Assembly: GCA_020861185.1 (NCBI GenBank)
Contig: JAJBSV010000002.1
Span: forward strand, 186,001 to 250,000
Reading direction: 5' to 3'
Length of the DNA stretch: 64,000 nucleotides
From: Ruminococcus sp.
GTDB taxonomy: Bacteria > Bacillota > Clostridia > Oscillospirales > Ruminococcaceae
Shown: positions 1,088 to 61,440 of the stretch, in pieces
How the letters are laid out: every line of letters starts with the position of its first letter
How positions within the stretch are numbered: position 1 is the stretch's first letter
The notes under the pieces: generated by a model
The model's database searches: none
Told to the model about the DNA's origin: nothing
What the model saw: only the letters and a program-made list of their open reading frames with translations
Position numbers and translations under genes: made by a program

Positions 1088-3334
1088 ATGCCAAGAAAGA
1101 AAAAGCCGACTGAGGACAAGCCGGTCAAGCTTACTGAAAGACAGCGTGATGCCTATATAGGTGGCGCCGGAACGGTCGTTGATGAGCCGATAACCGTCAC
1201 GCTTGAAAAGAACTATATGCCCTATGCGATGAGTGTTATCGTCTCGAGAGCTTTCCCCGAAATCGACGGCTTCAAGCCCTCTCACCGCAAGCTTCTTTAT
1301 ACAATGTACAAGATGGGGCTTCTGACCGGTCCGAGAACCAAATCGGCGAATATTGTCGGTCAGACGATGAAGCTTAATCCCCACGGAGACCAAGCCATCT
1401 ATGAGACTATGGTCCGACTCGCCCGTGGCAACGAAGCGCTCCTGCACCCATATATTGATTCGAAGGGAAACTTCGGCAAAGCGTATTCAAGCGACATGGC
1501 TTTTGCGGCTCCGAGATACACCGAGGCGAAGCTTGAGCCCATCTGCAATGAGCTTTTCGGGGACATTGACAAGGACACCATCAACTTCGTCCCGAACTAT
1601 GACAACACCATGCTCGAGCCGGAGCTTCTGCCGGTCACCTTCCCCTCTATACTCGTAAACTCAAACGTCGGTATCGGCGTTTCGATGGCGAGCTCGGTCT
1701 GCCCGTTTAACTTGCGTGAGCTATGTGAGGCGACAATTAATATCATCCGTGACCCCGATTTTGATGCCCTTGAAGTCATGAAGGGTCCAGACTTTCCCGG
1801 CGGAGGATATATGATTAACGAGCCGGACAAGCTCAGGCAGATTTTCGACACGGGTAGGGGCTCTGTCAAAGTAAGAGCGAAGTATACATTCGATAAAGAA
1901 GCCGGTTGCATCGAGATTACCGAAATCCCGCCGACCACGACGGTTGAGGCTATCATCGAAAAAGTCATCGACCTCGCCAAGAACGGCATGAAGGAAATTG
2001 CCTATATCAGAGACGAAACCGACCTCGACGGCTTGAAGATTGCTATTGACGTCAAGCGTGGAACCGACCCCGACCTTCTCATGAAGAAGCTCTATGCGAA
2101 GACTCCTCTGCAGGACAACTACTCGGCGAACTTCAACATCCTTGTCAACGGCTATCCGAAGGTACTCGGCGTCAACGACATCATAAGAGAATGGATAAAG
2201 TTCCGTGTTGAATGCGTTAAGAGAAGGACCGCTTTCGATTTAAAGAAAAAGAACGAAAGACTGCATTTACTCGAAGGTCTCGAGAAGATACTTCTTGACA
2301 TCGACAAGGCAATAAAGATTGTAAGAGAAACCGAGGAGGAGTCAGACGTTGTCCCGAACCTTATGATCGGATTCTCGATTGATGAGATTCAGGCGGAGTA
2401 TGTCGCTGAAATCAAGCTGAGACACCTGAACCGTGAATTTATCTTAAACCGCTTGGCGGACGTCGAGCAGTTAAAGGCTGAGATTGACGAACTGAACGGA
2501 ATCTTAGGCTCTGAAAGAAAAGTAAAGCTCATCATCATCGACGAGTTAAAGAGAGTTGCCGACAAATACGGTCAGCCGAGAAGAACCGAGATTATCTATG
2601 TTTCCGACGAGCCGCTCCCGAAGGAAGAAAAGACCGTTTCCGATTATCCCTGCAGAGTCTTCCTGACCAGAGAGGGCTACTTCAAGAAGATCACTCCTCA
2701 GTCGCTCAGAATGTCAGGCGAGCAGAAGGTCAAGGAAAACGACGTTATGATGCAAGAGTTCGACACCACGAATTCCGCTGAGCTTCTCTTCTTCACGAAT
2801 TTCCACAACGTCTATAAGACGAAGGTGGCGCAGTTCAGCGACTCGAAGGCGAGCCTCTTGGGCGATTATATCCCCGTCACGCTCAAATTCTCGGAGGGCG
2901 AGACTGTCGTCAGGATGGCTGTAACGCAGAACTACTCGGGATGCCTCTTGTTCGTCTACAAGAACGGCAAGGTCGCGAAAGTGCCGCTTGAATCATATCA
3001 GACGAAGACGAACCGCAAGATGCTCCAGAATGCTTATTCCGACAAGGAAGAGCTTGTCGAAATGCTCGATGTCGGCGAGGGTGCGGATGTTATGCTCCGG
3101 TCTTCGAACGGCAGAGCGATTCTCTTCAACACCGGCATGATTCTCCCGAAGGCGACGAAGAACACCATCGGCGTTCAGGCGATGGCTCTCAAGGCTAAAG
3201 GAAGCTACATCGACTCGGCTGTTATCGTCACCGAAGAGAAGGCTAAGGAGCTCTCGAAGTATCGCACGAAGACGATTCCCGCCGCGGGACCCTTTGCAAA
3301 GGACCTCGAAGACCCGAACCAATACACGCTGTAA
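1088..3334 (+). CDS. parC: DNA topoisomerase IV subunit A (GyrA/ParC family)
   Basis: A 748-residue breakage-reunion subunit of a type IIA topoisomerase. The N-terminal winged-helix/tower region contains MPYAMSVIVSRAFPEIDGFKPSHRK and the strand-cleaving tyrosine in APRYTEAK at about residue 144, which forms the phosphotyrosyl link to DNA. A coiled-coil arm near residues 370-480 precedes a C-terminal beta-pinwheel of degenerate repeats. I do not see the QRRGGKG-type GyrA box that gives gyrase its DNA wrapping, which favours decatenating topoisomerase IV. The start ATG follows a GGGAGGGAGAG ribosome binding site. It lies 14 bp after the B subunit, the usual clostridial parE-parC arrangement. 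The subunit type is an inference from family features. Confidence 0.87.
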   Translation: MPRKKKPTEDKPVKLTERQRDAYIGGAGTVVDEPITVTLEKNYMPYAMSVIVSRAFPEIDGFKPSHRKLLYTMYKMGLLTGPRTKSANIVGQTMKLNPHGDQAIYETMVRLARGNEALLHPYIDSKGNFGKAYSSDMAFAAPRYTEAKLEPICNELFGDIDKDTINFVPNYDNTMLEPELLPVTFPSILVNSNVGIGVSMASSVCPFNLRELCEATINIIRDPDFDALEVMKGPDFPGGGYMINEPDKLRQIFDTGRGSVKVRAKYTFDKEAGCIEITEIPPTTTVEAIIEKVIDLAKNGMKEIAYIRDETDLDGLKIAIDVKRGTDPDLLMKKLYAKTPLQDNYSANFNILVNGYPKVLGVNDIIREWIKFRVECVKRRTAFDLKKKNERLHLLEGLEKILLDIDKAIKIVRETEEESDVVPNLMIGFSIDEIQAEYVAEIKLRHLNREFILNRLADVEQLKAEIDELNGILGSERKVKLIIIDELKRVADKYGQPRRTEIIYVSDEPLPKEEKTVSDYPCRVFLTREGYFKKITPQSLRMSGEQKVKENDVMMQEFDTTNSAELLFFTNFHNVYKTKVAQFSDSKASLLGDYIPVTLKFSEGETVVRMAVTQNYSGCLLFVYKNGKVAKVPLESYQTKTNRKMLQNAYSDKEELVEMLDVGEGADVMLRSSNGRAILFNTGMILPKATKNTIGVQAMALKAKGSYIDSAVIVTEEKAKELSKYRTKTIPAAGPFAKDLEDPNQYTL

Positions 3335-47992: not shown

Positions 47993-48433
47993 TTATTGCT
48001 TCTTGGTGAGATAATTCTCTAAGAATTTTACGGCTTCGATATAACCGTTAAAGCCGAGTCCCATATAGGTTTTTACGCACGCTTTGCCCGCATATGAAAT
48101 CTGCCGGAAGTCTTCACGCTCGTTGACAGCCGAGATATGAACTTCAACCGCAGGAATAGACACGGCTTTCAACGCATCCAAGATTGCAACGCTTGTGTGA
48201 GTGTAAGCCGCCGGATTTATGACGATTCCGTCAAAAACGCCGTAGGCTTCCTGAATTCTGTCGACGATTGCGCCTTCGTGATTAGACTGGAAGAAGTCGA
48301 CTTCGATTCCCCTGCTGTCGCAATATTCGGATATCAGCTTTACAAGCGAGGCATAGGTCTCGGAGCCGTAGATTCCTGGCTCCCTGATTCCGAGCATGTT
48401 CAGATTCGGACCGTTTATTACGAGTATTTTCAT
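47993..48433 (-). CDS. aroQ: Type II 3-dehydroquinate dehydratase
   Basis: A 146-residue type II dehydroquinase: KILVINGPNLNMLGIREPGIYGSETYASLVKLISEYC (the mobile active-site loop with Arg and the catalytic Tyr in PGIYG), FFQSNHEGAIVDRIQEA, DGIVINPAAYTHTSVAILDAL, and EVHISAVNEREDFRQISY. It forms the usual dodecamer and dehydrates 3-dehydroquinate to 3-dehydroshikimate, pathway step 3. Its ATG shares a base with the aroE-aroK stop. It is the last pathway gene of the operon led by aroF. Confidence 0.95.
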   Translation of the reverse strand: MKILVINGPNLNMLGIREPGIYGSETYASLVKLISEYCDSRGIEVDFFQSNHEGAIVDRIQEAYGVFDGIVINPAAYTHTSVAILDALKAVSIPAVEVHISAVNEREDFRQISYAGKACVKTYMGLGFNGYIEAVKFLENYLTKKQ

Positions 48434-49677
48434 TATACCATGCCCTCGATTTCTTTTATAATCCTGTCGACGGTTTCCGCAACCGTTCCGTTGTTGTCGA
48501 CCTTTATGTCTGCGAAGCGCTCGTACATGGGCTTGCGCTTTGCGTAGAGCTCCGATAGATCCGACTTCTGGGAAATGGGTCTGCCGTCTGTCGGGAGCTT
48601 ATTGGTGTCACGCTCGAGCCAGACGATGATTCCGTTTTGATGGAGGAGATTGTAGTTTTCTTCTCTCGTGACAACTCCGCCGCCGGTGGAGATGATTCGC
48701 TCGGAAAGCTTGCCCGAGGCTTGCATCTCGGCGGTTTCGAGCCTTCTGAACTCTTCCTCGCCGGAGCGCTCGAAGATTTCAGGGATGCTCATTCCCGCAT
48801 TCTTCACGATTTCCGCATCGGTTTCGATGACCTGCCTATGTAGCCTCTGACCAAGAGCCTGAGCTACAACCGATTTGCCACTGCCGGGCATACCTATTAA
48901 TATAATGTTTTCGAGCTCTTTTGTCAACGATTTTTCGATAAATGTAACCGAATCGTCACTGATTTTTTTATTCTGGAATCGCTCGGAGCTGTATTTTGCC
49001 TGCGCAACGAGCATGTGAAGCCCGCTCTTGTGCTTAAGTCCGAGAGCTTCGGCTTGCAGAATTAATGCAGTTCTCATCGGGTTGTAGATTACGTCGAGGA
49101 CGCACTCGCAGGACGGAATTCTTCTTAAATCGAGAGGCGAAACGCCGTTTTTCGGGTACATTCCCACGGGTGTCGCGTTTACTACGAGGACAGCATCCGA
49201 ATGCTTTTCGATGTTGTCGTAGTTGTCTTCGCCCGAGCGGCTTATCGGGATTACTTCGGCACCCATTTCACTCAAAACCTTCTGAACGGTCACACCGGTG
49301 CCGCCGGTGCCTAAAACCAAGGCTTTTTTTCCGGAGAGTCGGACGCCGGTTTCAAGGACCATGCTTTTGAATCCGTAATAGTCGGTGTTATAGCCGTAGA
49401 TTTTGCCGTCGCGCTTGACAAGGGTGTTGACGCTTCCGAGGCTTTTGGCGATGTCCGAAAGCTCGTCGCAGAGGGATGCGGCGACTTTTTTATACGGTAT
49501 CGTGACGTTCAAGCCGTCCCAGTCGCCGTGAAGTATGAAATCCTCGACTTTATTCTTCGGGACTTCGTAGAGACGGTAGTCATAATCGCCTAAATAAGCG
49601 TGAATTCTCGGAGAATAGCTATGCCCCAAAGTTTCGCCAAGAAGCCCACAACGGAGTTGACATGAAACTTGTTTCAT
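48433..49677 (-). CDS. aroE-aroK: Bifunctional shikimate dehydrogenase / shikimate kinase
   Basis: A 414-residue fusion. Residues about 8-245 are AroE: CGLLGETLGHSYSPRIHAYLGDYDYRLYEV (the SxS shikimate site), LNVTIPYKKVA with catalytic Lys, LGSVNTLVKRDGKIYGYNTDYYGF, and the NADP-binding ALVLGTGGTGVTVQKVL. Residues about 255-414 are AroK: IILIGMPGSGKSVVAQALGQRL (Walker A), ETDAEIV, FRRLETAEM and IISTGGGVV, plus the lid RPIS. It performs reduction of dehydroshikimate and phosphorylation of shikimate, steps 4 and 5. The domain order is E then K. It lies 2 bp before pheA's stop on the upstream side and overlaps aroQ by one base. Confidence 0.93.
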   Translation of the reverse strand: MKQVSCQLRCGLLGETLGHSYSPRIHAYLGDYDYRLYEVPKNKVEDFILHGDWDGLNVTIPYKKVAASLCDELSDIAKSLGSVNTLVKRDGKIYGYNTDYYGFKSMVLETGVRLSGKKALVLGTGGTGVTVQKVLSEMGAEVIPISRSGEDNYDNIEKHSDAVLVVNATPVGMYPKNGVSPLDLRRIPSCECVLDVIYNPMRTALILQAEALGLKHKSGLHMLVAQAKYSSERFQNKKISDDSVTFIEKSLTKELENIILIGMPGSGKSVVAQALGQRLHRQVIETDAEIVKNAGMSIPEIFERSGEEEFRRLETAEMQASGKLSERIISTGGGVVTREENYNLLHQNGIIVWLERDTNKLPTDGRPISQKSDLSELYAKRKPMYERFADIKVDNNGTVAETVDRIIKEIEGMV

Positions 49678-53252: not shown

Positions 53253-54293
53253 TCAAAGCCAATCCTTAAGCTGAGATTTCGGGAGCTTCATGAGCTCGCA
53301 ATGCCCGATTCTACGGGGGACGATTATAGTAATGGAGTCGCCTGAGCCCTTCTTGTCGGAAAGGGCGAGGGTGTACATATCGTCGACCGTGTATTCTGTA
53401 TCGGTCGGGAGACCGTATTTCTCTAAGAGTGCAATAATTCTCTCGCAATCACCATCGCTCAGGTAGCCATACTTTGCGGCGGAACGCGAAATGGTCGCAA
53501 GACCGATGGCGACAGCCTGACCGTGAAGGGTCTTAAAGCCGCTCAAGCCCTCGACTGCGTGACCAACGGTGTGCCCGAGGTTAAGCAGCATTCTCTCGCC
53601 GGTGTCGAACTCGTCGGCCTTGACGATGTCGCGCTTCATGGTGACGCAGGTGGTGATGACGTTTTCGAGCTGATCCTTGGCAGGGGTCTCCTCAAGCTCG
53701 GAGAAGAACTCCTCGCTGAAAAGAACAGCATACTTTATAACTTCGGCACAGCCGCAGAGGTATTCCTCCTCTGGAAGTGTCGAGAGGGTTTTCGGATCGC
53801 ATATAACAGCCGACGGCTGATAGAAGGAGCCGACCTGATTCTTGCCGTTCTCGAGGTTTACAGCGGTTTTTCCGCCGACGGAGGAGTCGACCATCGCAAG
53901 AAGGGTTGTCGGAATCTGGACGAACTGCACTCCGCGCTGATAGGTTGCCGCCGCGAAGCCGCATAAGTCCCCTACCACTCCGCCGCCGAGAGTGACAAGC
54001 AAATCGCTTCTTGTGACGCCGCTTTCGAAGAGGAATTCAAGAAGGTTGATATATGAGCTCAGGCTCTTCGAGCGTTCGCCGTGCGGGACGACGAATTCCT
54101 TCACAACGAAGCCCTCGCTCTCGAGGCTCTTCGTGACTCTCTTACCATAGAGAGGAAAGACGTTGTCATCCGAGACGATGACGGCGGTTTTGCCCTTGAC
54201 AAGGGGCTTGCAGAACTCGCCGCATTTGTCGAGTATTCCGTCTGAAACGGTTACATCGTAACTCCGGGATGCCGTAACATTTACAACACTCAT
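53253..54293 (-). CDS. aroB: 3-dehydroquinate synthase
   Basis: A 346-residue NAD- and Zn-dependent cyclase turning DAHP into 3-dehydroquinate, step 2. Conserved elements are AVIVSDDNVFPLYG, VVPHGERSKSLSSYINLLEFL, LVTLGGGVVGDLCGFAAATYQRGVQFVQIPTTLLAMVDSSVGGKTAVNLENGKNQVGSFYQPSAVICDP, the metal-binding GERMLLNLGHTVGHAVEGLSGFKTLHGQAVAIGL, and VLSDKKG-like ALSDKKGSGDSI. All are present at the usual spacing. The start overlaps the tyrA stop by 4 bp. Confidence 0.96.
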   Translation of the reverse strand: MSVVNVTASRSYDVTVSDGILDKCGEFCKPLVKGKTAVIVSDDNVFPLYGKRVTKSLESEGFVVKEFVVPHGERSKSLSSYINLLEFLFESGVTRSDLLVTLGGGVVGDLCGFAAATYQRGVQFVQIPTTLLAMVDSSVGGKTAVNLENGKNQVGSFYQPSAVICDPKTLSTLPEEEYLCGCAEVIKYAVLFSEEFFSELEETPAKDQLENVITTCVTMKRDIVKADEFDTGERMLLNLGHTVGHAVEGLSGFKTLHGQAVAIGLATISRSAAKYGYLSDGDCERIIALLEKYGLPTDTEYTVDDMYTLALSDKKGSGDSITIIVPRRIGHCELMKLPKSQLKDWL

Positions 54294-55123
54294 CTTCCGT
54301 CTACCTCCGCTTTTATCTTTCTGCCGTCGTCAAGGAGCTTGACAAGCTCTTCTTTATTGTTTTCACGGATTGCCGTGCGATATTGGTCGAGATTTTCGAC
54401 CAGGATATCAAGCTCTTTTATCAAGTTGTCGCCGTTTTCGAGGAACAGCTCCGCCCACATTTCGGGGTTAAGCCAGGCGACGCGAGTCATGTCCTTATAG
54501 CTTCCCGCCGAGAAGCCCTTGTGCTCGCGAGCCGTGGGGCTCTTGATATATGCGTTCGAAACAACGTGGGCAAGCTGGGAGGTGAAAGCAATCATCTCGT
54601 CGTGCTTTTCGGCAGTCGTGACCGAGATGCTTCCGAATCCCGCAGGCTTCAAGAGCTCCTTTGTGTGGCTTAAAAGCTTGATGCTCGGCTCGCCGTTCGG
54701 TACGAGCACCATCGGTGCGCCCTTGTACATGTCGGCTCTGGCGTACTTATAACCGGAATTATGCGTTCCCGCCATCGGGTGTCCGCCGACAAAGGTGAAG
54801 CCGTATTCATCGGCAAGCTTAAAGCCGACCTCGGTGACCTTCCGCTTGGTGCCGCAACAGTCGATTACAACCGGCTTCGAGCCGAAATGCGGCGCGGCTT
54901 TCTCGAGATACTCTATGCAGGCATCGGGATAGACGGATATCAAAACTATGTCGCACTCTGAGAGATTATCCGTAGTCAGTTCGTCATCGACGTCGCCCGC
55001 AAGCTTGAGGTAGTCAAGAGCGGATTTACTTCTGTTCCAGCCGAGGACGGTGTGTCCCGCCTCTTTATAAACCTTGGCAAACGAGGCTCCTATAAGCCCC
55101 AAACCCACGATTCCGGCAATCAT
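54290..55123 (-). CDS. tyrA: Prephenate dehydrogenase
   Basis: A 277-residue NAD(P)-dependent enzyme that oxidatively decarboxylates prephenate to 4-hydroxyphenylpyruvate on the way to tyrosine. It has GIVGLGLIGASFAKVYKEAGHTVLGWNRS (the Rossmann GxGxxG), ECDIVLISVYPDACIEYL, GTKRKV, and the active-site GGHPMAGTHNSGYKYARADMYKGAPMVLVP with the catalytic His, then FTSQLAHVVSNAYIKS. It is the short form with no ACT domain, so tyrosine control must act elsewhere; the Tyr-rich leader peptide is a good candidate. It overlaps aroF and aroB by 4 bp each. Confidence 0.94.
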   Translation of the reverse strand: MIAGIVGLGLIGASFAKVYKEAGHTVLGWNRSKSALDYLKLAGDVDDELTTDNLSECDIVLISVYPDACIEYLEKAAPHFGSKPVVIDCCGTKRKVTEVGFKLADEYGFTFVGGHPMAGTHNSGYKYARADMYKGAPMVLVPNGEPSIKLLSHTKELLKPAGFGSISVTTAEKHDEMIAFTSQLAHVVSNAYIKSPTAREHKGFSAGSYKDMTRVAWLNPEMWAELFLENGDNLIKELDILVENLDQYRTAIRENNKEELVKLLDDGRKIKAEVDGR

Positions 55124-56124
55124 CCGAGTGCAGCCTCCCTGACAGCAGTGATTTTACTGGATAATTTCTCGAACTCTTCAGGACGAAGCGACTGTGCGCC
55201 GTCGCAAAGAGCGTGCATCGGGTCGTTATGAACCTCGATAATGAGTCCGTCGGCGCCTGCCGCTGTAGCCGCCATAGCCATCGGAGGCACAAGTCTTGCC
55301 ATGCCTGTTGCGTGGCTCGGGTCTGCGATTACGGGAAGATGCGAAAGCTCGTGAAGCATCGGGATTGCCGAGATATCCATCGTGTTTCTCGTGTAGTCGC
55401 TGTAGGTTCTGATTCCTCTTTCGCAGAGCATGACCTTCTCGTTGCCGGATGCCATAATGTACTCAGCACTCATGAGAAGCTCCTTGAGGGTATTTGCAAG
55501 ACCACGCTTGAGTAAAATCGGCTTGTCAGTTTTGCCGAGCTCCTTGAGCATTTCGAAGTTCTGCATATTTCTTGCGCCGACCTGCAAAACATCGACGTCC
55601 TCGAACAAATCAAGGTCGTTGGTGCTCATGATTTCGGTTACAATCGGGAGACCTGTTTCAGCGCGGGCAATCTTCAAAAGCTCCAAGCCACGAGCGTGGA
55701 GACCCTGGAAATCATAGGGCGAGGTTCTCGGCTTGAACGCGCCACCTCTTAGCATGTTTGCGCCCGCCGCCTTGACAGCCTTGGCAACCGCAACAATCTG
55801 GTCTTCGCTTTCGACAGAGCAAGGACCGGCTATCATGCAGAAGTTACCGCCGCCGATTTTAACGCCCTTTACGTCTATAACGGTGTCGTCGGGATGGAAT
55901 TCGCGGTTACAGCACTTGAAAGCCTCGGTGACTCTGGTGACGGAATCGACTATGTCAAGACTCTCTATCAAATCCTTGTCGACCTTGGTGGTGTCGCCGA
56001 TGAGACCGAGGACGGTTGTGTACTCACCCTCGGAAATATGGACCTTGATGCCCATTCCGCCGAGCCATTCGATAAGCTGGTTGCGCTTTTCTTCCGATAC
56101 ATTCTTCTTTAATGCTACTACCAT
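55120..56124 (-). CDS. aroF: 3-deoxy-7-phosphoheptulonate synthase (DAHP synthase, class I beta)
   Basis: A 334-residue DAHP synthase, the entry step of the pathway. Residues about 1-70 form a ferredoxin-like regulatory domain ([42 protein letters not shown]), as in Thermotoga, where aromatic amino acids inhibit through it. The barrel (about 85-334) shows [63 protein letters not shown], and [23 protein letters not shown] with the metal ligands. As first gene it sits about 255 nt behind the promoter, after the leader peptide and attenuator. Ribosome binding site GAAAGGAC. Overlaps tyrA by 4 bp. Confidence 0.95.
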
Positions 56125-56181: not shown

Positions 56182-56212
56182 CAAAAAAGCTGCACAAGTA
56201 ACCTGTGCAGCT
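56182..56212 (-). terminator. Attenuator terminator before aroF
   Basis: Minus strand AGCTGCACA (56212-56204) pairs perfectly with TGTGCAGCT (56196-56188), 7-nt loop, and the stem is followed by TTTTTTG (56188-56182). It lies 58 bp before the aroF ATG, so it must be bypassed for the operon to be expressed. Confidence 0.93.
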
Positions 56213-56277
56213 GATAAACAAAACTTTTTTGTTGCAACACAAATCACTTTACCTGAGGAATTAGCGCATGGTAAAGT
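56196..56277 (-). promoter_or_regulatory. Pause hairpin and antiterminator of the aro attenuator
   Basis: Minus strand. Segment 1 ACTTTACC (56277-56270, in the Tyr-Phe-Thr codons of the leader peptide) pairs with segment 2 GGTAAAGT (56253-56246). Segment 2 continues as AAGTGATTTGTG (56249-56238) and can instead pair over 12 bp, three of them G-U, with segment 3 CACAGGTTACTT (56207-56196), which is the 5' arm and loop of the terminator. Pairings 1:2 plus 3:4 stop transcription; 2:3 allows it. Confidence 0.85.
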
Positions 56278-56332
56278 AATAATAATATGCAAAGCAGAAA
56301 ACATTGGCAGAGCCAACAGTTTGTTTTGACAT
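56261..56332 (-). CDS. Phe/Tyr-rich leader peptide of the aromatic operon
   Basis: A 23-codon frame too short for usual gene calls: M-SKQTVGSANV then FCFAYYYYF then TMR and TAA. It holds three Phe codons (two TTT, one TTC) and four consecutive Tyr codons (three TAT, one TAC), with no Trp. The start ATG at 56332 has an excellent SD, GGAGAG (56345-56340), 7 nt upstream, and a consensus promoter about 55 bp before it. The Tyr-Phe codons overlap segment 1 of the pause hairpin. A ribosome stalled for charged tRNA-Tyr or tRNA-Phe would therefore cover segment 1, free segment 2 and prevent the terminator. The design is that of pheL/trpL. Function inferred from sequence architecture. Confidence 0.9.
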   Translation of the reverse strand: MSKQTVGSANVFCFAYYYYFTMR

Positions 56333-56359
56333 CGTGCAACTCTCCGTAAATAGTTCATT

Positions 56360-56377
56360 TGAACGCTTCCACGTTCA
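56360..56377 (-). promoter_or_regulatory. 5'-end hairpin of the aro leader RNA
   Basis: TGAACG/CGTTCA, 6-bp stem with a 6-nt loop, within the first about 20 nt of the predicted transcript. It may stabilise the RNA. Confidence 0.4.
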
Positions 56378-56386
56378 TCTTTAATG

Positions 56387-56415
56387 ATTATATACGACCC
56401 GACGAAGTTTGTCAA
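56387..56415 (-). promoter_or_regulatory. aro operon promoter
   Basis: Minus strand TTGACA (56415-56410), exactly 17 bp, TATAAT (56392-56387): full consensus. Such a strong promoter fits control by attenuation rather than by initiation. Confidence 0.9.
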
Positions 56416-56622: not shown

Positions 56623-57060
56623 ATGAAACTCAGAAGATTTTTAGCAATACTCATGAGCCTGTCGCTTATGGTGATGTTGGTCGGATGCACATCAGCTGAT
56701 GACGACACAGAAGACGAAGCCGAAACCACAACAGCGGCGACCACGGCGGAAACCGAAGCAGAGGAAACCGAAGACGACGTTACGGTCGAGGATGAATCCA
56801 CCGAGGACGAAGAGTCAACCGACGACGGCACTGCGGAAGATACCGAATCAGAAGAAGCGGAAGCTACCGAAGATGAGGAATCTACCGACGATACAGAAGC
56901 CGAAGAATCCGAAGATACTGAATCCGAAGAGTCCGAAGACGCTGTAGCCACCGACACGGACAGTGAAGAGGAATCCACCGACGATGAGTCGACAGAAGAC
57001 GAAGTCGCCGAAGACACCGATTCGGAAGAATCTACGGAATCCGAAGACACAGAAGAGTAA
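56623..57060 (+). CDS. Acidic low-complexity lipoprotein
   Basis: A 145-residue secreted lipoprotein: basic start MKLRRFLAILMSLSLMVMLVGC with the lipobox VGC (lipid Cys at about 22). After this the whole mature chain is made of Asp, Glu, Ser and Thr with a few Ala and Val (EDEAETTTAATTAETEAE and many EESTDD/EDTESEE units). It has no hydrophobic core and almost no basic residue, so it should be an intrinsically disordered, highly negative surface filament or Ca2+-binding brush. ATG 56623 follows AAGGAGGAACG. The 5' flank (56416-56622) holds one perfect DnaA box at 56502-56510 and a TATAAT near 56583 but nothing else I recognise. No known family. Confidence 0.75.
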   Translation: MKLRRFLAILMSLSLMVMLVGCTSADDDTEDEAETTTAATTAETEAEETEDDVTVEDESTEDEESTDDGTAEDTESEEAEATEDEESTDDTEAEESEDTESEESEDAVATDTDSEEESTDDESTEDEVAEDTDSEESTESEDTEE

Positions 57061-61244: not shown

Positions 61245-61250
61245 ATAGAA

Positions 61251-61440
61251 GAGGTAGAGGCGCGGTATGCCAAGAGTAGCGATGCCATGTTGACCGCCGA
61301 GGTCGGCATTTGCGAAAGGGACTACTGCCGAGGACGCTTTACGGCAAAAAAGTGATCCGGCAATGCGGTTAATATCCGTTTTGCTGTCGCACCAAAAGTG
61401 TGGAGAGCTATCGACGTTTCATACTGCGCGGCTGTACGCG
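61251..61440 (+). ncRNA. Lysine riboswitch (L box)
   Basis: Conserved L-box blocks occur in order: GAGGTAGAGGCGCG, CCAAGAGTAGC (loop-E-like turn), GCGAAAGGGACTACTGCCGAGG, TTGCTGTCGC and GTGTGGAGAGCTATCGACG. It lies just after a consensus promoter and before dapA, with a terminator hairpin at its 3' end. Binding of lysine should favour the terminator and switch off diaminopimelate and lysine synthesis. The exact 5' and 3' limits are approximate. Confidence 0.92.

Follow-up and report, generated by a model that had tools for sequence, protein, structure and literature searches.

The classical ribosome-mediated attenuators are trpL, pheL and hisL of Proteobacteria. In Firmicutes, amino-acid operons are as a rule ascribed to T-box control, and leaders regulated by TRAP carry a series of spaced GAG/UAG repeats. 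Leader peptides are nevertheless on record in this phylum and beyond it. A his attenuator of the classical type is summarised in PMC9413887, which also covers his-operon leader peptides in Peptostreptococcaceae, Erysipelotrichales and the B. cereus group; a His leader-peptide system in bacilli was reported as new at the time (PMC2965389), and PMC4833913 cites earlier predictions for hisZ and lysQ. Among ilv leaders, Listeria Rli60 (PMC5864092) and the S. aureus ilvD attenuator peptide (PMC5794164) are described as having experimental support, and Trp attenuators have been predicted before trpB2A of C. diphtheriae (PMC1262725). The nearest described system is uORFC-13-1 at aroF of Acholeplasma, given in PMC8632094 with 24 representatives from Acholeplasma and environmental DNA only. 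A first-pass annotation of the DNA studied here held that Firmicutes normally place amino-acid operons under T-boxes or TRAP; as a general rule this agrees with custom, but it has to be qualified by the His and ilv leaders and the Phe uORF of Acholeplasma, which are precedents for leader-peptide attenuation.

The window, the whole stretch of DNA that was analysed, comprises 64,000 nucleotides of a Ruminococcus sp. genome (Bacillota; Clostridia; contig JAJBSV010000002.1, positions 186,001 to 250,000), and coordinates below count from its first letter. Judged from its sequence and that of its relatives, the leader ahead of aroF in the window very probably acts as a ribosome-mediated transcription attenuator, with charged tRNA-Tyr and tRNA-Phe as the signals it senses. 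The leader and the operon behind it contain the following features:

56387..56415, minus strand: promoter TTGACA-17-TATAAT (TTGACA 56415-56410, TATAAT 56392-56387), consensus match 12/12
56340..56345, minus strand: Shine-Dalgarno GGAGAG of the leader ORF, 7 nt ahead of the ATG at 56332
56261..56332, minus strand: leader ORF MSKQTVGSANVFCFAYYYYFTMR*, 23 codons; a Phe/Tyr-rich ORF recurs in relatives
56270..56277, minus strand: strand 1, ACTTTACC, within the Tyr-Phe-Thr codons; 8/8 pairs with strand 2
56234..56253, minus strand: strand 2, GGTAAAGTGATTTGTGTTGC; alternative partners strand 1 and strand 3
56196..56212, minus strand: strand 3; partner in the antiterminator (56207-56196) and 5′ arm of the terminator
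56183..56212, minus strand: intrinsic terminator 3:4 with U-tract; stem 56212-56188
55120..56124, minus strand: aroF, DAHP synthase, first gene of the operon; NCBIfam NF006421 and TIGR01361, over cut-off
54290..55123, minus strand: tyrA, prephenate dehydrogenase; right NCBIfam families, under their cut-offs
53253..54293, minus strand: aroB; TIGR01357
52004..53251, minus strand: aroA; TIGR01356
50920..51987, minus strand: aroC; TIGR00033
49680..50867, minus strand: pheA, chorismate mutase/prephenate dehydratase (CM-PDT); 211.5 bits against a cut-off of 219
48433..49677, minus strand: aroE-aroK fusion; both halves match the right NCBIfam families, under curated cut-offs
47993..48433, minus strand: aroQ, type II dehydroquinase; TIGR01088

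Transcription would start near 56380. The leader ORF contains four consecutive Tyr codons, three Phe codons and no Trp codon. Strand 1 (ACTTTACC, 56277-56270) is fully complementary to GGTAAAGT (56253-56246), and the antiterminator joins AAGTGATTTGTG (56249-56238) to CACAGGTTACTT (56207-56196) in 12/12 pairs, three of them G-U. The terminator reads AGCTGCACA/GGTTACT/TGTGCAGCT (56212-56188) with 9/9 pairs, runs into a T-tract (six residues including the last stem base) and lies 58 bp from the aroF ATG (56124). The first-pass annotation had named all of these elements, from the perfect promoter, Shine-Dalgarno sequence and Trp-free 23-codon frame to the three pairings and the distance to aroF, and every one proved exact when checked by position. 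Its argument that a Trp-free leader fits the operon content also holds: tyrA and pheA are present, and an NCBIfam scan found no trp gene among the eight operon genes.

When the 300 bp ahead of aroF were shuffled 2000 times with dinucleotide content kept, no shuffle yielded an ATG- and SD-led ORF with seven Phe/Tyr in nine residues (0/2000), and a chance ORF as the source of the leader frame was rejected on the shuffle tests. A consensus scan returned three promoter-like sites (0.8 in shuffles) and four terminator-like sites (0.3 in shuffles). A divergent lipoprotein-like ORF with a long tail rich in Glu, Asp, Thr and Ser lies at window positions 56623-57060 (+).

The leader was compared across loci collected by AroF similarity, a non-random sample that combines 31 genomes assigned to the genus with 80 named-record loci (111 upstream stretches in all; L001 duplicates L002, and the two sets have several genomes in common). 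A short ORF (ATG, GTG or TTG) with at least five Phe/Tyr in nine residues and a terminator-like hairpin behind it was found in 82/111 upstream stretches, equal to 70 distinct leaders, the ORFs being picked in relatives by scripts biased toward aromatic-rich ORFs. By a strict rule (ATG, SD, ≥6 Phe/Tyr in 9 residues, ≤300 nt), 56/99 distinct aroF upstreams retain such an ORF, against a mean of 0.0 and a maximum of 0 in 20 shuffle rounds; the short Tyr/Phe ORF that the first-pass annotation expected at orthologous aroF genes does recur.

In the genus set, 15/31 genomes have the full leader at aroF; the leader of L011 is interrupted by the contig end with its terminator retained, and G017 is one further genome outside the count. 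No such leader was seen at aroF in 14/31 (L018-L031; AroF 51-64% identical), and a covariance-model search of three of these leader-less genomes (G018, G022, G025) gave no match. Most of the named loci are from MAGs that carry the label Oscillospiraceae, Ruminococcaceae, Lachnospiraceae or Clostridia. Among those with the label Bacteroidaceae, Colivivens or Tidjanibacter, the sole leader candidate is L110. This MAG, labelled Tidjanibacter, combines a Phe/Tyr ORF (NAYFYYFFT) with a terminator-like hairpin ahead of aroF; it may be mislabelled, or its leader transferred or independent. At another locus (L176), tandem attenuators precede aroF (1327-1438 and 1501-1618, minus strand), with Phe-rich leaders that contain one and no Tyr codon.

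Exclusion of six leaders of doubtful structure (L066, L072, L081, L091, L103, L110) left 64 of the 70 for alignment. Measured from where the strand-2 core begins, the stop codon falls between −22 and +14 nt in 61/64 (18 leaders at −9, 14 at +4), and in 3/64 it lies further downstream; the offset in the window leader is about −20.

To follow the spread of the leader, we used a covariance model, R1, that contains helices 1:2 and 3:4 only (E ≤ 0.01), and a second model, R2, rebuilt from 95 matches (E ≤ 0.001). R1 matched 68/394 genomes of the order, with an aromatic gene behind the match in 60/68, and 8/398 genomes of a phylum sample (6/8 with an aromatic gene behind). R2 matched 40/391 genomes of the class and 10/398 of the phylum. 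The own genome is counted for both models, and strict search filters were used, which lose weak matches. Reading 78 R1 matches placed aroF behind 60, trpB2 behind five, a TrpX-like gene behind one and none of these behind 12. Among the 46 R2 matches read, aroF lies behind 39 (tblastn), and the other seven precede a lone pheA (2), a pheA-first operon (1), a tyrA-first operon (1), a paaK-like gene (1) or no aromatic gene (2; L281, L285).

From these 124 matches, 14 without an aromatic-amino-acid gene were dropped, and the remaining 110 rows form a codon table, with leader ORFs again chosen by scripts that lean toward aromatic-rich frames (G791:C8 is counted twice, and two rows come from the tandem site L176). 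Leaders of aro operons, with aroF, pheA or tyrA first (101 rows), mix Tyr and Phe; Trp occurs in four, inside the aromatic block in two of them, and Tyr is missing in one, which belongs to the tandem pair. All five trpB2 leaders (L147, L148, L164, L165, L166; 3/5 from one genus) contain Trp, with blocks such as FIWWRF, KYWRYF and KYWYFYF, and the two leaders of a lone pheA (L282, L297; both one genus) have seven and eight Phe and no Tyr. Relatedness among rows makes the p values of both contrasts optimistic: Trp in 5/5 trpB2 against 4/101 aro leaders (Fisher p = 1.2e-6), and absence of Tyr in 2/2 lone-pheA against 1/101 aro leaders (Fisher p = 5.7e-4). The gene behind L147 matches TIGR01415/NF009057 over cut-off and the other four trpB2 genes are its relatives; the best NCBIfam match of the lone pheA gene is prephenate dehydratase, slightly under cut-off.

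A genome with a lone pheA (G934) also has an aroF-operon leader (L296) with both Tyr and Phe, and in the 7.2 kb read of that operon (L305) tyrA is present and pheA was not seen (by eye; last gene scanned). Where a pheA-first (L302) or tyrA-first (L303) operon holds both genes, the leader again mixes Tyr and Phe. That codon identity tracks the controlled gene is the strongest functional evidence the sequences offer, and the comparison supports the earlier reading of the aromatic operon as controlled by a Tyr/Phe leader-peptide attenuator.

The codon table also bears on an arrest peptide of the type represented by TnaC, in which a free aromatic compound bound in the ribosome tunnel, rather than tRNA charging read through codons, would set the response. 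Such a peptide could equally appear as a short recurring aromatic sequence before aromatic genes, and its RNA switch would look identical. It is nonetheless an improbable account of leaders in which Phe and Tyr interchange, the block varies in length, the N-terminal half differs from one leader to another, and the codons change with the gene, Trp appearing before trpB2 and Tyr disappearing before a lone pheA.

Several leaders have neighbours or forms of their own. In both leaders of a lone pheA, about 6 nt separate the TATAAT box from the ATG that follows it and the SD is not clear, so the leader peptide may come from a leaderless mRNA. A second short ORF with Trp codons lies between the terminator and trpB2 in L164, L166, L148 and L165 (MRIILYWRWRVRAVNK.., MRRLDKLWRFC.., MPLSKRW*) and perhaps adds a further, translational layer of control by Trp, in series with the first. 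Ahead of another trpB2 (L229, G106:C3), at a distance of about 230 nt, MNNNHNSVFFGFWCGYWFSCSFVVLELEQ with a hairpin behind it, missed by R1, is a candidate for a diverged or separate Trp attenuator. One match (L288/L304, G909:C158) has eight Phe and two Tyr in its leader and precedes a paaK-like gene (best match phenylacetate-CoA ligase, under cut-off), with an adjoining small protein that resembles an ACT domain; elsewhere (L307) a paaK-like gene comes after trpB2 and a sodium symporter gene. These neighbours may point to arylacetate use in amino-acid synthesis. A Tyr/Phe leader without Trp (L190/L306, G368:C1) precedes a gene whose product resembles the ABC binding protein TrpX (232.7 bits against a cut-off of 390); an ABC ATPase gene lies downstream, and the substrate there may be Tyr/Phe rather than Trp.

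We counted paired changes in an alignment of 47 distinct leaders (A1), obtained from the 64 by excluding 11 near-duplicates and six long-insert or divergent forms. RNAalifold on A1 recovered the terminator only; helices 1:2 and 2:3 were designated from the alignment and then counted, and the shuffle controls keep the relatedness of the leaders. In the terminator, 95.5% of cells are paired, with 51 double-sided changes against 18.2 in shuffles (score 0.402 vs 0.168). In the antiterminator, 90.2% are paired, with 31 against 8.9 (score 0.253 vs 0.156); pairing drops to at most 56.8% of cells when the strands are slid, and one pair (58-114) is broken in 24/47 leaders. Both helices exceed the shuffles on 5/5 pairing measures. 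The 1:2 helix (83.8% of cells paired; 42 double-sided changes vs 15.0; score 0.258 vs 0.172) exceeds them on 3/5. The other two measures, pairs with double changes (3 vs 2.8) and pair types (16 vs 14.7), show no excess and are matched by 296 and 143 of 500 shuffles, and the double-sided changes are confined to three outer pairs. The compensatory changes anticipated by the first-pass annotation are thus clear for 2:3 and 3:4 and limited for 1:2.

Pairing 2:3 was absent from the search models and could be examined in 108 rows by comparing each leader's own strand 3 with swapped ones. The mean pairing energy of strand 2 is −16.0 kcal/mol with the strand 3 of the same leader and −11.1 with those of others (Wilcoxon p about 1e-17); the own pairing ranks in the best 5% for 46/108 rows, with a median rank of 7.5%. 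The lone-pheA leaders retain the pairing although their letters are wholly different (in L282, GTTCACTGC with GCAGTGAAC), and pairing is weak in the TrpX-like and paaK-like cases (L190, rank 0.23; L288, rank 0.38).

If strand 1 merely had to be U/A-rich for pairing, the Phe/Tyr codons could be its by-product, with a protein or other factor in control. Strand 1 does overlap the Tyr-Phe-Thr codons, and one of the three outer 1:2 pairs involves the synonymous third position of Thr (ACC/ACT), which covaries with its partner (columns 22-40: UA 15, CG 14, UG 10, other 8). The aromatic codons, however, extend upstream of strand 1 in frame with the ATG, their third positions are both T and C (the anchor being imprecise for some rows), and Trp codons occupy the block before trpB2. 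We consider this explanation very improbable, and conservation from pairing alone is rejected on the codons upstream of strand 1 and the gene-dependent codon identity.

In an Rfam scan of the window, only a lysine riboswitch reaches its gathering score. The leader stays below every threshold, its six matches up to E 10 being all far under those of their families, and the search for a matching leader family that the first-pass annotation had proposed therefore names none. The T-box (RF00230) has no match in the window, and its covariance model does not pick out the leader. The riboswitch (RF00168, 76 bits; window 61247-61418, plus strand) lies upstream of dapA-like and diaminopimelate-decarboxylase-like genes (named by eye).

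T-boxes are nonetheless common in these genomes. The source genome has eight matches at E ≤ 0.001, at least three of them over cut-off, and four precede cysE-cysS-, leuA-, valS- and alaS-like genes (by eye); all 31 genomes of the genus set have matches at E ≤ 0.001, 28 over cut-off. Among 20 trpB2 loci, four of which are attenuator loci, a T-box at gathering score was found in four (L232, L234, L237, L240), so trpB2 has likely switched from one type of sensor to another. For all this abundance, a misread T-box or other known RNA leader is scarcely credible at aroF, and was rejected, with no Rfam match at threshold on the leader and no T-box at 20 aroF loci from relatives.

For the window leader, the folding z-scores are −4.25 for the terminator, −2.83 for the 1:2 hairpin and −2.79 for the antiterminator, and as separate stretches 2:3, 3:4 and 1:2 fold at −17.6, −14.9 and −7.5 kcal/mol. 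From strand 1 through the U-tract, the form with 1:2 and 3:4 is the minimum (−27.6 vs −22.6 for the 2:3 form), so the terminator form would win without a stalled ribosome. For the complete leader of 198 nt the two forms are level in energy (−55.2 and −55.1), and the one printed fold is 2:3. If strand 1 is cut off and strand 4 kept, the terminator makes up 0.91 of the equilibrium ensemble and the antiterminator 0.09: a free strand 2 favours strand 3 only as long as strand 4 is missing, and antitermination must therefore rest on timing, before strand 4 is made. Formation of the antiterminator ahead of strand 4 is the customary assumption for ribosome-mediated attenuation.

The leader has the parts of a classical attenuator: an SD-led ORF with codons for the product amino acids, a terminator, an antiterminator sharing strand 3, a 1:2 hairpin over the regulatory codons and a stop codon placed to allow masking of strand 2. 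In the mechanism we propose, polymerase would transcribe the leader while a ribosome initiates on the 23-codon ORF. With charged Tyr- or Phe-tRNA in short supply, the ribosome would stall at the YYYYF codons and cover strand 1, strand 2 would pair with the newly made strand 3 before strand 4 exists, and aroF-tyrA-aroB-aroA-aroC-pheA-aroE/K-aroQ would be transcribed. When both tRNAs are plentiful, the ribosome would get to the stop codon, which adjoins or lies inside strand 2 in the leader family. With strand 2 masked by the terminating ribosome, or paired with strand 1, the 3:4 terminator would form and transcription would end after about 198 nt. Sequence and comparison establish the elements, the recurring codons, the pairings and a codon identity that tracks the gene; the stalling, the direction of control, the start site, the timing and the coupling of ribosome and polymerase are our inference. 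Bacillus subtilis reportedly runs transcription ahead of translation, which, if true here, would weaken the attenuation mechanism.

Our search of the open-access PMC literature, with subscription papers outside its scope, found no report of Tyr/Phe leaders in Clostridia. The leaders probably constitute an undescribed Clostridia family in which a change of codons redirects a single RNA scaffold: Tyr and Phe at aro operons, Phe at a lone pheA, and Trp, mostly together with Tyr/Phe, at trpB2, where other genomes of the order have T-boxes; the TrpX-like and paaK-like genes would be single cases of the same family. The family is large and new but of a known kind, because leader-peptide attenuators of Firmicutes and the Acholeplasma Phe uORF are published. 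A large family without a match in the copy of Rfam that was scanned would achieve control of the T-box type through translation. Its spread, if true, would imply that ribosome and polymerase keep in step over the leaders in mostly uncultured lineages, and transcription-translation coupling in Clostridia becomes testable through them. A common scaffold with other codons before another gene amounts to a natural codon-swap experiment, and the leaders can hint at the substrates of genes such as aromatic transporters or arylacetate ligases.

Compared with known systems, the leader shares with T-boxes, also present in the source genome, the control of amino-acid genes by tRNA charging; T-boxes differ in binding tRNA directly and in having no ORF. 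The Firmicutes His leaders, as presented in PMC2965389 and PMC9413887, are likewise leader-peptide attenuators that replace T-boxes, and differ in their His codons, his genes and other lineages. Rli60 and the ilvD peptide (PMC5864092, PMC5794164) share ribosome-mediated attenuation in Firmicutes and are set apart, by description, by branched-chain codons and the ilv-leu operon. In uORFC-13-1, too, aroF is preceded by a uORF that contains Phe codon(s), together with a promoter, an RBS and a terminator, and attenuation is proposed; its description in PMC8632094 differs in giving at least one Phe and mentioning no Tyr block. Like trpL, pheL and hisL, with which the Rfam scan was the sequence comparison, the leader combines a short ORF of regulatory codons, helices 1:2, 2:3 and 3:4, and a terminator before a biosynthetic operon; unlike them, it belongs to another phylum, would sense Tyr and Phe together and has the whole shikimate-Tyr-Phe operon behind it.
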